Assembly: GCA_028285585.1 (NCBI GenBank) | Contig: JANQOU010000012.1 | Location: forward strand, 62,001 to 126,000 | Direction of reading: 5' to 3' | Length of the DNA: 64,000 bases | From: Acidimicrobiia bacterium | GTDB taxonomy: Bacteria; Actinomycetota; Acidimicrobiia; Spongiisociales; ZC4RG35 | In this document: positions 55,580-60,303 of the stretch, in pieces | How the letters are laid out: every line of letters begins with the position of its first letter | Numbering within the stretch: the first letter of the stretch is position 1 | Position numbers and translations under genes: made by a program | Notes under the pieces: generated by a model | Told to the model about the DNA's origin: nothing | The model's input: the letters and a program-made list of their open reading frames with translations, nothing else | The model's database searches: none

Positions 55580-57136
55580 ATGGCGCTGAGAATCACTTAC
55601 GCAACGATGTCCGCAGACAACGAGGAGCTGAACAGCGCCTACGAGAAGTCGGTCCTCGATGTGCAAGCCAGGCTCGGTCAGAACCATGGTGTGATCGTCA
55701 ACGGGGAATCGAGAACCGACCGCGACTTCTTCGAAGAAGTCTCACCCATAGACAAAGGCATCCTGATCGGCCGTTACGCCCAAGCCACCACGGACGACAT
55801 CGACGATGCGGTGGCTGCCGCCGAGGCCTTCCAACCGGAATGGGAGGCATGGGGATGGGAGAAGCGGCGGGACTTGATGCTCACCGCGGCCGACATCATG
55901 GACGCCGAGACGTTCGACCTGGCAGCCATGTTGTCGTACGAAGTCGGCAAGAACCGCCTCGAGGCTCTGGGAGACGTCGCCGAGACGGTGGAGTTCCTCC
56001 GCTACTACGCAAACCAGATCACCGAGCACGATGGGTTCGTGACGCCGCTCAGCTCGCTGAGCCCCGATGAGACCAATGTGTCGGTGCTCCGCCCCCACGG
56101 CGTGTGGGCCGTGATCTCACCGTTCAACTTCCCGCTGGCACTGGCTGGTGGGCCTTCGACGGGCGCACTGATCACCGGCAACACGGTTGTGCTGAAGCCG
56201 TCGAACACAGGTGCGTTGATGGCTCTCGAGTTTCACAGGATCATGAGCGAGGCGGGATTGCCCCCCGGCGCCCTGCATGTGGTGACCGGTGGCGACGAAG
56301 CCGGTGACTACCTGGCCCACCACGACGATGTCGACGGGTTGACCTTCACCGGCTCTTACCCCGTTGGGATGTATCTCTACAGGACAGTCAATGAGAAGCG
56401 GCCGAAGCCGGTTTCGGCCGAGATGGGCGGGAAGAACCCGGTGGTCATAACCGGGAGCGCCGACCTCGACCAGGCCGTGGAGGGTGTGGTCCGCGGGGCG
56501 TTTGGGTTGAGCGGACAGAAATGCTCGGCGACATCACGGGTATATGTCGAAGAGCCCGTCTACGACGAGTTCGTGGACAAGCTCGTGGCTCGAACCGCTG
56601 AGATCGAGGTCGGGGACCCAACCGAGAACGGGATCTTCGTCGGGCCGGTCATAGACGACGCAGCCATCGAGAGATTCGAAGGTGCCGTTGCCGAGGTGAG
56701 AGACAGCGGTGGCGAAGTTCTAGCTGGCGGGGGCGTCATCGACAGAGGTGACATGGCCAAGGGCAACTATGTCGAACCGACCGTCGTCCACGCTCCGCTC
56801 GACTCATGGGTCTGGTCCACCGAGTTGTTCGTGCCTTTTGTCGCGGTGACCGCGGTGTCGGACATGGAAGAGGGCTTGGCGTTGTCCAACGACACAGAGT
56901 TCGGCCTCACCGCCGGGCTCTTCAGTGCAGATGACGACGAGATCGACAAGTGGTTCGCCGGGATCCAGGCCGGAACCACCTATGTCAACCGTGCCGCCGG
57001 GGCCACCACGGGCGCATGGCCGGACATCCAGTCGTTTGGAGGATGGAAGGGATCAGGCACCTCCGGGGCCGGAGGGGGAGGCCCCTGGTATCTGCGTCAG
57101 TTCCTTCGCGAGCAGTCCCGGACCCTGATCAGGTGA
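55580..57136 (+). CDS. 1-Pyrroline-5-carboxylate dehydrogenase
   Basis: 518 residues. Aldehyde dehydrogenase of the P5CDH group, converting glutamate semialdehyde to glutamate. Catalytic Cys315 in LSGQKCSATSRVYVEE; Glu in VSAEMGGKNPVVI; substrate and NAD blocks SPFNFPLALAGGPSTGAL and GLTFTGSYPVGMYLYR. It completes proline breakdown with the proline dehydrogenase 20 kb away. AGAGG lies about six bases before the ATG, so it is one of the few leadered genes; the 150-base gap to the histidine kinase holds nothing else recognised. Confidence 0.9.
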   Translation: MALRITYATMSADNEELNSAYEKSVLDVQARLGQNHGVIVNGESRTDRDFFEEVSPIDKGILIGRYAQATTDDIDDAVAAAEAFQPEWEAWGWEKRRDLMLTAADIMDAETFDLAAMLSYEVGKNRLEALGDVAETVEFLRYYANQITEHDGFVTPLSSLSPDETNVSVLRPHGVWAVISPFNFPLALAGGPSTGALITGNTVVLKPSNTGALMALEFHRIMSEAGLPPGALHVVTGGDEAGDYLAHHDDVDGLTFTGSYPVGMYLYRTVNEKRPKPVSAEMGGKNPVVITGSADLDQAVEGVVRGAFGLSGQKCSATSRVYVEEPVYDEFVDKLVARTAEIEVGDPTENGIFVGPVIDDAAIERFEGAVAEVRDSGGEVLAGGGVIDRGDMAKGNYVEPTVVHAPLDSWVWSTELFVPFVAVTAVSDMEEGLALSNDTEFGLTAGLFSADDDEIDKWFAGIQAGTTYVNRAAGATTGAWPDIQSFGGWKGSGTSGAGGGGPWYLRQFLREQSRTLIR

Positions 57137-58199
57137 CAGTGATCCGGAGACCATCCGGATCTTGAAGCTCGAGTCCTTCGGCGACAGCCGACGAGCTGAC
57201 ACCCACGCTTGCCAAGTGGTCCTTCCAGCGTTGCAAGTCGTCGACGTGGAACGCCAGGGCATCCGGCCTGGCGCTTCCACCCTCGACCAGCTCGATCTCC
57301 TGGCCAGGAGCGGCTTGGACGACGGCTGCCACGACACCTTCTGAAGGTGAGCGGAGCTGCTCGAAGCCAAGGACGTCGCGATAGAACGTCAGCGAAGCTT
57401 CGAGTGAGCTGACTGCCACCGAGGTTCGGGTGGCGCTGACCCCGCCAGGAGCGCGGCGAGGACCGCCGCCGGCGAGCACTTCTTTGGCCTCCGTGATGGT
57501 GAACCGCCCGGCAGTGACTTCCCGACCCACGACCATGCCGGCAATCGTCCGCCCAGATGCCTCGAGCTGGCTGATCAACCTGAGGTCGTCGAGGTTGCGG
57601 ACTCCGCCAGAAGCGATCACAGGGTCTTCGACCGCAGCCAGAGCCTCGGCCAGAATCCCGAGATTGGGAGCTTCCTCCAGAGCGTCACGACCGGCTTCCG
57701 CCACCAAGAAGGCCACGGCGCCGGCCGATGACATCTCGATGAGCACTTCCTCGAGGAAGCGACCGCTGTTCTGGGTCCACCCCTGAGTGGCTATCTCCTC
57801 GTTGGCCCTCACGTCGAGCGACACGACGATCTTCTCCGGGTACTCCCGGCACAGATCCCAAACCATGATCTGGTTCTCGATAGCGGCAGTCCCCATGACC
57901 ATGCGCCAGGCGCCCATGTTCATGATGCGCTCGGCTTCACCCTCGGAGCGGACGCCGCCGGCGACCTGAACCGGCACCTCCGCCTCTTCCACGAGCCGCG
58001 AGATCAGGTCGCGGTTGCGGTAGTCGCGGTATGCGGCGGCGTCGAGATCGACGACGTGCAGGTAGTCGACCCCCTGCTTGACCCAGTTGTGGGCGCGGCC
58101 GATCGGGTCGTTGTCGAGAGCGATCGCTTCGTCCAGACGCCCTTTGGGGAGACGCACCGAGAGACCACCGAGGATGTTGATCCGTGCGTACAGGTCCAT
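57129..58199 (-). CDS. HisA-like barrel fused to a VOC (glyoxalase-like) domain
   Basis: 356 residues. Residues 1-243 follow HisA/PriA: LGGLSVRLPKGR, YLHVVDLDAAAYRD, VPVQVAGGVRSEGEAERIM, VVSLDVRANEEIATQGW, VIASGGVRNLDDLRLI and GMVVGREVTAG. The catalytic Asp8 of HisA is Asn8 (RINILGG). The TDISRDGT loop that holds the second catalytic Asp and phosphate contacts reads VAEAGRDAL. The second Asp-type residue (SLDVR) is kept. Residues about 250-356 form a VOC domain (TSVAVSSLEASLTFYRDVLG). Histidine synthesis is doubtful; another ketose-amine or unrelated isomerase role is possible. TAGGGT lies six bases before the ATG. Confidence 0.8.
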   Translation of the reverse strand: MDLYARINILGGLSVRLPKGRLDEAIALDNDPIGRAHNWVKQGVDYLHVVDLDAAAYRDYRNRDLISRLVEEAEVPVQVAGGVRSEGEAERIMNMGAWRMVMGTAAIENQIMVWDLCREYPEKIVVSLDVRANEEIATQGWTQNSGRFLEEVLIEMSSAGAVAFLVAEAGRDALEEAPNLGILAEALAAVEDPVIASGGVRNLDDLRLISQLEASGRTIAGMVVGREVTAGRFTITEAKEVLAGGGPRRAPGGVSATRTSVAVSSLEASLTFYRDVLGFEQLRSPSEGVVAAVVQAAPGQEIELVEGGSARPDALAFHVDDLQRWKDHLASVGVSSSAVAEGLELQDPDGLRITVT

Positions 58200-58255: not shown

Positions 58256-58363
58256 AACCTCAGGTAATAACGCCCGTATCTGGTAGCTATGGCCTCAAGT
58301 TGCCAGTGGGCTCTTTGAACGCGAGGCCATAGGGCCCGTATTCGGGCGTTATTACCTGAGGTT
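58256..58363. repeat. 108-base inverted repeat with 41-base arms
   Basis: Arms 58256-58296 and 58323-58363 are inverted copies: the outer 21 bases (AACCTCAGGTAATAACGCCCG) are identical, the inner 20 differ at seven positions. A 26-base loop separates them. The right arm covers the last codons and stop (TAA TAA) of the endonuclease-IV-like/LigD-like gene. It may be a strong terminator, or a small terminal-inverted-repeat element that inserted at the gene end. No clear target-site duplication is seen. Confidence 0.8.
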
Positions 58364-60163
58364 CGCGATACCGAGGGCGTCTTCGGCTTGGTCGAGGGTT
58401 TGGCCGCCGGCGAGGACCGGAGCGAAGAGGTCGCCGTAACGCCGGAGGCGATCCCAGATGTTGGCGATGGTGATGTCTCCGTTCTGGAGCTCCCCCACCT
58501 CCTCCCAGGTCAGAGGTGTCGCAACGGGGGCACCAGGGAGAGGCCGTACCGAGTAGGCGGAAGCAACCGTCTGGCCTGACGCGTTGCGATTGTGGTCGAC
58601 GAAGACCTTGCCCTTCCGCTTGGGCTTGTCCCATTCCATGGTGATGTCGTCGGGGTTGGCCGCCGCCAAGTACTCGCCCAGCTCGCCGACGAACCTCCGC
58701 ACCCTCGGGTAGCCATGGACCGGCTCGAGGGGAACGTAGACATGCAAGCCCTTGGATCCGGAGAGCTTGGGATACCCCACCAGGCCGACCTGATCGAGGG
58801 CAAGCCTTAGCAACTGAGCCCCGGCAACCAACTGCTCCCACGATGACCCCTCCGCCGGATCGAAGTCGAAGATGGCGTACGAGGGCATGTCGGGCGTTTC
58901 CGCCGTCGAGTGGAACGGGTGCATCTCGACACAGGCTATGTTGGCGAACCACATCAGCGACTCTGTGCTGTCGGCGACCAGGAAGTCGATCTCACCTCCC
59001 ATCGAGTCCGAGACCACCGGCACGATCTTCATCCAATCCGGCTGATGGCCCGGTGCCCTCTTCTCGTAGAAACTCGGCCCCCCTATGCCGTCGGGATAGC
59101 GGGACATCGAGATCGGCCTGCCGGCAAGATGCGGCAGCAGCACCGGTGCGATCGACGTGTAGTACTGGATCAAATCCCCTTTTGTGTAGGAGTCGCCGGG
59201 GAAGAACACCTTGTCGATGTTGGAGAACGTGATCGGCCGGTCCACTTGTTGCGGCACGAACCGTTCACCGTCTTTGACCACGCTCACCTTCGAGGGGAAG
59301 TCGATGCCTGCCGACGCCAAGGGGCGGCCCGGTGAGCCCACGGTGGTCATGTGATCACGCACCTCGTCCCAGATCAGACCGTGACTCTTCATGTCACGCG
59401 CCTCGGATATGAGCACCATGGAGAGGCCCATCTCCTGAACTGCTTCTATCAGCGGCCCGACCCGAAGAGTCCCCTCGCCGTATGGAACGTGACGGATCTC
59501 ACCGGACGCCCCGAACTCGTTGTCGGAGAACTGGACTTGGAGCGGCTGGATCATCCATCCCGGGAAACTCTCCCGAACGAACGCCAGGACCGAGGCGAAC
59601 GCCTCTTTGGTGACAAGCTGGCCGCCGGTCATGGCGTGCACATGTGCCCAGTCGACCACCGGCCTCACAAAGCTGTATTCAGAGGCGAGCTGGGCGATGT
59701 CACCGAGACTCCCGAAAGAGCTCTTGTTGCCAGCCGTCTCGAGACCGAGACCGACGCCGAGGTCGACCACTTTGGGAGCCACGTAGTCGAGACGTGATCG
59801 GATCCGGTCCATGAGGGCCGAAGGCTCCTCTTCGTAGGCCGACCCGAAGTGGGCGACGATCACCGGCGCGCCAAGCGCTTTGCCCAGCTTCATGGTGTGC
59901 TCCATGGCGGCAAGCGACTGCTTGCCTCGGTCTTCGTCGGGGATGGTCAGTCCGGCGAAGTAGGGGGCATGAACCGAAAGCCGCAAGTCTCGCTCAGCTG
60001 CGAGCAGGCCGAACTGCTCGCAATGTTTCTCCTTCCAAGGAAACCCTTTGGTGAAGGGAAGCTCCAGGGCGCGGTGCCCCTGCTCGACGAGGCCGTCGAG
60101 GAAGGCGACAGCGTCGGCGCCTTCTGGAGGAAGCTCGCTGATCCCGAATCGGATCGTGGTCAT
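58352..60163 (-). CDS. Endonuclease IV-like barrel fused to a LigD-type polymerase domain
   Basis: 603 residues. Residues 1-275 resemble endonuclease IV / xylose-isomerase-type TIM barrels: SVHAPYFAGLTIPD (H65), VIVAHFGSAYEE (H105), GLGLETAGNKSSFGSL (E142), VDWAHVHAMTGG (D171, H174), H225 and E254. Seven of nine zinc-ligand positions look kept; the HLND His and the DRH Asp appear replaced. Residues 310-603 are a full LigD polymerase (AEP/primase) domain: NIDKVFFP, SRYPDGIGGPSFYEKRAP, metal Asp433 and Asp435 in IFDFDPAEGS, SGSKGLHVYVPLE, Asp523 in VDHNRN, YSVRPLPGAPVATPLTW. No ligase or nuclease domain of LigD is attached. TAGCCT lies seven bases before the ATG. Confidence 0.9.
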   Translation of the reverse strand: MTTIRFGISELPPEGADAVAFLDGLVEQGHRALELPFTKGFPWKEKHCEQFGLLAAERDLRLSVHAPYFAGLTIPDEDRGKQSLAAMEHTMKLGKALGAPVIVAHFGSAYEEEPSALMDRIRSRLDYVAPKVVDLGVGLGLETAGNKSSFGSLGDIAQLASEYSFVRPVVDWAHVHAMTGGQLVTKEAFASVLAFVRESFPGWMIQPLQVQFSDNEFGASGEIRHVPYGEGTLRVGPLIEAVQEMGLSMVLISEARDMKSHGLIWDEVRDHMTTVGSPGRPLASAGIDFPSKVSVVKDGERFVPQQVDRPITFSNIDKVFFPGDSYTKGDLIQYYTSIAPVLLPHLAGRPISMSRYPDGIGGPSFYEKRAPGHQPDWMKIVPVVSDSMGGEIDFLVADSTESLMWFANIACVEMHPFHSTAETPDMPSYAIFDFDPAEGSSWEQLVAGAQLLRLALDQVGLVGYPKLSGSKGLHVYVPLEPVHGYPRVRRFVGELGEYLAAANPDDITMEWDKPKRKGKVFVDHNRNASGQTVASAYSVRPLPGAPVATPLTWEEVGELQNGDITIANIWDRLRRYGDLFAPVLAGGQTLDQAEDALGIANLR

Positions 60164-60227
60164 GGCCGACAGGCTATTGGCCAAGTGTTCGATTGACCCG
60201 ACCGGCGTTACGCTTTCGGTCTCAACC

Positions 60228-60303
60228 GGGTCTCTAGCTCAATTGGCAGAGCAGCGGGCTTTTAACCCGAAGGTTCGGGGTTCGATTCCCCGGGGACCCA
60301 CCA
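60228..60303 (+). tRNA. tRNA-Lys (anticodon UUU)
   Basis: 76 bases including encoded CCA. Acceptor GGGTCTC pairs with GGGACCC (one G-T), D arm GCTC/GAGC, anticodon loop CTTTTAA with TTT at 60261-60263, T arm with GGTTCGATTCC. The anticodon stem has a G-A mismatch at 27-43. A TACGCT -10-like hexamer lies at 60209-60214. The FGE gene starts 17 bases later, so they may share a transcript. Confidence 0.95.

Follow-up and report, generated by a model that had tools for sequence, protein, structure and literature searches.

A fused endonuclease-IV-like barrel and LigD-type polymerase as a possible rebuilt LigD for Ku-dependent end joining in an order of Actinomycetota

An endonuclease IV (Endo IV)-like TIM barrel and a LigD-type polymerase are joined in a single polypeptide encoded by an acidimicrobiial genome, and from the architecture, recurrence, conserved residues, phylogeny and co-occurrence observed here we interpret the fusion, with moderate confidence, as a rebuilt LigD for Ku-dependent end joining. 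More tentatively, it may represent a second, non-homologous type of bacterial end-joining enzyme. In this view, an Endo-IV-like three-metal nuclease fused to the polymerase (Pol) took the place of the LigD 3'-phosphoesterase (PE) on at least two occasions, with the domains in either order; the resulting enzyme would be the standard partner of Ku throughout an order of Actinomycetota, and it might in addition incise and patch abasic sites located at breaks.

In the window, i.e. the whole stretch of 64,000 nucleotides analysed here, the fusion is encoded on the minus strand at 58352-60163 by one ORF of 603 amino acids without internal stop, which runs from an ATG at 60163 to a stop codon at 58354-58352; the alignment of relatives favours this start over an upstream TTG at 60184. 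The initial annotation had proposed a fusion with exactly these coordinates, though without naming a strand, and both the single ORF and the Pfam matches to the two domains bear it out. The N-terminal TIM barrel (residues 1-276; 59336-60163) matches AP_endonuc_2 over residues 26-272 (E = 1.6e-28). It is followed by a linker (residues 277-305; 59249-59335; pLDDT dips to 71 around residue 275) and by the C-terminal LigD-type Prim-Pol domain (residues 306-588; 58400-59248), where residues 327-580 cover the entire LigD_Prim-Pol profile (PF21686, positions 1-254 of 254; E = 7.2e-87). No ligase or PE domain is found by Pfam within the 603 residues. The AlphaFold2 model, computed from an alignment of 40 relatives, has high confidence over its whole length (mean pLDDT 92.7, pTM 0.90), and a frameshift or assembly artefact is rejected as the source of the fusion, since single-ORF fusions occur in many genomes. 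Just upstream of the gene, on the opposite strand, lies the only tRNA gene found in the window (tRNA-Lys, anticodon ttt; 60228-60303, plus strand).

On the strength of family membership and conserved residues we assign the C-terminal domain to the LigD-type (Prim-PolD-like) polymerases. It is complete, as initially annotated, in that it fills the Pfam profile and carries the three catalytic Asp of Prim-Pols: D433 and D435 (58859-58867, minus strand, as are all residue coordinates below) and D523 (58595-58597). These residues are invariant in the 40 aligned fusions, a set in which identity between the query and its 39 relatives ranges from 40 to 78%, and so are K318 and K328 (59180-59212), which we take to be the equivalents of the 5'-phosphate pocket lysines K16 and K26 of Mt PolDom. 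The closest solved structure is the NHEJ polymerase of Methanocella paludicola (5dmu; Z = 38.3, 36% identity), which differs in being stand-alone and without a barrel, followed by Prim-PolC (Z = 37.8) and the Pol domain of Mt LigD (Z = 36.0). In one phylogenetic tree the fusion polymerases fall into two clades with good support, which group with Pol domains from Pol-PE-Lig LigDs (support 88/68), and in a second tree the fusion polymerases and the LigD Pol domains share an unresolved deep node. The Prim-PolC clade, which contains the second polymerase of this genome (L002), stands apart from the fusion polymerases in the phylogeny. Moreover, the fusion Pol ends at the equivalent of residue 311-314 of Prim-PolC (5op0/6sa1), short of Loop 3, for which residues 316-335 have been named and which is absent from the end-joining Prim-PolD (PMC5663958). 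The tail past the Pol match measures about 15-26 amino acids in intact fusions, compared with 49-60 in the Prim-PolC-clade ORFs of the sample. Membership of Prim-PolC is rejected on both grounds, the position outside that clade and the lack of Loop 3.

Twenty-one fusion loci were recovered in a scan of the genome collection, mostly from Acidimicrobiia or Actinomycetota MAGs. In the window's order the fusion is carried by 92 of 138 genomes (counted at E < 1e-100, with some copies split over contig ends and one genome, G473, set aside), and in a sample of the phylum it is also found in a second, distant group made up of families f50 and f47 (40-44% identity). A fusion of the reversed order, Pol-barrel, was detected in family f43 by a search with the barrel profile, as 600-aa ORFs in G072 (Pol at 30-281 and barrel at 347-593 by Pfam) and G223, and as two overlapping ORFs in G266. 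This variant looks independent in origin, because its polymerase falls among other polymerases of the LigD type and stand-alone ones, although the deep nodes are weak. The reversed loci (L176 5193-6995 and L177 2691-4493) lie in small genomes of about 1.5 Mb with Ku, and a reversed fusion in the company of Ku argues for a real functional pairing of barrel and Pol.

Several other variants occur. For instance, the polymerases of G473 and G475 (L145 2440-3447; L146 2936-4270) have no barrel, pointing to a secondary loss because they still carry remnants of linker sequence and branch within the fusion clade; neither genome has a Ku match. Stand-alone barrels occur in family f51 (L173, L174 and L175), where HAPL replaces HAPY and the Tyr72 equivalent is thus lost, and two of these three genomes have Ku. 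The fusion ORF of G092 (L059 5717-6850) shows an N-terminal stretch of about 378 amino acids without Pfam match, which may be an overcalled start. The initial annotation regarded this architecture as not known to be characterised, and the open-access literature likewise gave no description of a barrel plus Prim-Pol fusion; as the search covered mostly such papers, an earlier description is possible, and the fusion may already stand uncommented in domain listings of the Pfam type.

The fusion co-occurs with Ku. Across the order (138 genomes), Ku is found in 78 of the 92 fusion genomes versus 20 of 45 without the fusion (p = 2e-6), and among good-quality genomes in 54 of 58 versus 6 of 19 (p = 2.4e-7), in tests that take genomes as independent, which they are not given their shared phylogeny. 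Four good-quality fusion genomes are without Ku (G441, G442, G469 and G486), and eight genera, as judged by good-quality genomes, have neither the fusion nor Ku. A conventional LigD is present in five of the six good-quality genomes that have Ku and no fusion, all from family f3; the PE-Lig-Pol order of these LigDs was confirmed by Pfam for two, PE lies in the same long ORF in all five, and the Ku and LigD matches are about 2 kb apart. By the same kind of test, an ORF of LigD length at a second Pol match is found in none of the 58 good-quality fusion genomes of the order versus 5 of the 19 others (p = 6e-4). The PE domain is missing from most fusion genomes of the order. Beyond the LigD set it occurs in thirteen genomes, mostly in ORFs of about 500 amino acids, and because the one such ORF checked is a PE-Lig without Pol, the fusion would complete the set in PE-Lig genomes. 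In the phylum sample, Ku accompanies 18 of 19 barrel carriers versus 172 of 377 others. Most of the second group (f47/f50) carries PE as well, and one genome there (G189) also possesses a LigD.

The initial annotation had raised the matter of Ku and LigD elsewhere in this genome. One Ku is present (C8:55660), on a different contig from the fusion (C14), and the genome has no LigD-type PE domain. An ATP-dependent ligase is convergent with ku at a distance of about 0.1 kb. Contig C4 carries a second ligase and the Prim-PolC-type polymerase L002, separated by about 3.5 kb, as well as a canonical Endo IV (C4:579384). Among the conserved neighbours of the fusion in the window's family there is no ku, ligase or other repair gene. 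The gene at 57129-58199 (minus strand), for a protein with a HisA-type (PF00977) and a C-terminal glyoxalase domain (PF00903), adjoins the fusion in seven loci of this family, and the other conserved neighbours, judged by eye, are aldehyde dehydrogenase-like and PlsY-like. In other families of the order a stand-alone 5'-3' exonuclease gene lies about 2 kb from the fusion (L067 5602-6474, with domains PF02739 and PF01367 confirmed by Pfam; L068 5692-6615; L066 5042-5923; L016 4250-5212; L186 9853-10767), and none was seen in the window's family; as operon-type evidence this arrangement is suggestive only.

The main rival to end joining is base excision repair, because this is the process that the mycobacterial and Bacillus subtilis precedents concern. 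The fusion would then be a one-chain patch enzyme independent of Ku, whose barrel incises an abasic site or trims the 3' end that a glycosylase/lyase leaves behind, and whose Pol fills the gap of 1-3 nt. In mycobacteria, EndoIV, Prim-PolC and LigC1 reconstitute the repair of damaged bases, with EndoIV as the most beneficial nuclease, preparing 3' ends for its sister polymerase Prim-PolC and co-purifying with LigC (PMC5663958). In B. subtilis spores the effects of ligD and nfo mutations on survival do not add up, which suggests that the two interact functionally (PMC4770248). The mycobacterial complex thus also combines an Endo IV with a gap-filling Prim-Pol, but as separate proteins, whereas here the two are fused and the Pol, to judge from the first tree, belongs on the LigD side. 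The conservation of Endo IV ligands and of a Tyr72 equivalent in the barrel would suit base excision as well, as would the fusion genomes without Ku. However, this genome already possesses a canonical Endo IV and its own Prim-PolC-type gene near a ligase, and neither the Ku co-occurrence nor the exclusion of LigD would be expected from a base excision enzyme. Together with the tree and the missing Loop 3, these observations lead us to prefer end joining and to regard base excision as rather unlikely.

The initial annotation, which had pictured one chain cutting or sensing an abasic site and filling the gap, was right about the Endo-IV-like barrel, the intact Pol and an architecture without a description in the open-access literature searched, but its abasic-site setting is less supported than end joining, since this genome already encodes a canonical Endo IV and a separate Prim-PolC-type polymerase and the fusion tracks Ku and alternates with LigD. 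The fusion may nonetheless cleave abasic sites.

The barrel itself belongs to the AP_endonuc_2 superfamily of TIM barrels, and its nearest fold is Endo IV. In the structural comparison endonuclease IVs rank at the top (4hno, Z = 26.0; 2x7v, Z = 25.8; E. coli Nfo structures, about 25), below which come epimerase-like chains (Z at most 23.8) and UVDE (4gle, Z = 21.1). Among PDB sequences the barrel profile finds MJ1311 (3wqo) first, at 3e-9, and Endo IV at about 1e-6. The NCBIfam models rank TIGR00587 (nfo) first at 1e-10, followed by UVDE at 0.017 and CbiR at 0.045, all far under their curated cut-offs (41.4 bits for TIGR00587 versus a cut-off of 129.65, which is not reached). An identity as UVDE is rejected on its weak sequence matches and lower Z score.

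We aligned the barrel with the genome's own Endo IV as reference, so that the equivalences come from alignment and not from side-chain superposition; the E. coli ligand numbers are those we presume for Endo IV. Seven of the nine zinc-ligand positions are identical and invariant in all 40 fusions, in agreement with the initial statement that most of the ligands are kept: H65 (H69, Zn1; 59969-59971), H105 (H109, Zn1; 59849-59851), E142 (E145, bridging Zn1 and Zn2; 59738-59740), D171 (D179, Zn2; 59651-59653), H174 (H182, Zn3; 59642-59644), H225 (H231, Zn3; 59489-59491) and E254 (E261, Zn2; 59402-59404). Y68, the equivalent of Tyr72, is invariant as well. The two positions that deviate are Q211 (59531-59533) in place of H216, which is Gln in 29 and His in 11 of the 40 sequences, and I223 in place of D229, one residue after an acid, E222 (59498-59500), that is invariant in 40 of 40. 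His stands at position 211 in the second group (f47/f50) and in a few members of the order, and the reversed fusions of f43 have it too. Because of the Gln and the loss of D229, full Endo IV activity cannot be assumed for the barrel of this lineage and could be weakened.

These substitutions, by which at least one metal site is altered, and scores far under the cut-offs of the NCBIfam Endo IV models might also mean that the barrel is a catalytically reduced or dead DNA-binding module that steers Pol to damaged or bent DNA, sensing and not cutting. We consider this improbable: the remaining ligands are invariant down to 40% identity, which a dead site does not need, and the second group and f43 retain His at position 211. 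A barrel of sugar-isomerase type, joined to the polymerase accidentally or to some unrelated end, is the possibility that the initial annotation had named as its own refutation. It is rejected as very improbable, in spite of the common fold superfamily and a best PDB sequence match (3wqo) deposited as D-tagatose 3-epimerase-like: Endo IVs are ahead in the structural ranking (Z 24-26 versus the lower-scoring epimerase-like chains), the Endo-IV-type Zn1 and Zn3 histidines, needless to epimerases, are invariant, and the pairing with a repair polymerase is repeated in both domain orders.

For the reading as a rebuilt LigD we infer catalysis, a partnership with Ku and a division of labour within the chain. 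Ku would bind the broken DNA ends, and the Endo-IV-like metallo-nuclease would first clean the 3' end of a 3'-phosphate, phosphoglycolate, damaged sugar or misplaced ribonucleotide; it may also nick abasic sites near the break. The clean 3'-OH would be handed to the polymerase within the same chain, which, to judge from its family and residues, probably grips the 5'-phosphate at the break or gap and incorporates a single nucleotide or a few, preferably ribonucleotides. A separate ATP-dependent ligase would then seal the break, in this genome perhaps the one beside ku. The 3'-phosphatase/phosphodiesterase chemistry of Endo IV overlaps with the function of the LigD phosphoesterase, and the barrel may thus take over the role of PE, or supplement it, most fusion genomes being without PE. 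In favour of end joining one may also cite that Endo IV readies 3' ends for a sister polymerase (PMC5663958) and works with LigD in B. subtilis spores (PMC4770248). Against end joining stand the lack of linkage to ku or a ligase, the four fusion genomes without Ku, the PE of the second group and the LigD of G189, the altered ligands, the shared ancestry of the genomes compared and the restriction of the LigD genomes to family f3.

Compared with the known systems, LigD (Pol-PE-Lig or PE-Lig-Pol) shares the Pol family, the closest Pol relatives of the fusion (45-49% identity) being found in Pol-PE-Lig LigDs, as well as the company of Ku and presumably the combination of end cleaning and gap filling in one chain. 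It differs in that the fusion has an unrelated Endo-IV-like barrel instead of the PE and ligase domains, in a gene unlinked to ku. Endonuclease IV (Nfo) shares the TIM barrel, most zinc ligands and the tyrosine, and differs by an identity of only about 17%, the Gln for H216 and shifted Glu for D229, the score under the nfo cut-off and the joined polymerase.

Endo IV and LigD-family polymerases have so far been linked, by biochemistry and genetics, as separate proteins (PMC5663958, PMC4770248), and a conserved fusion in both domain orders is direct evidence for their pairing. With the fusion, assays of end cleaning and gap filling can be run jointly on one polypeptide, and it bears on the division of Prim-Pols between break repair and base excision repair. 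Moreover, the fusion suggests that an end-joining system can do without the phosphoesterase of LigD.
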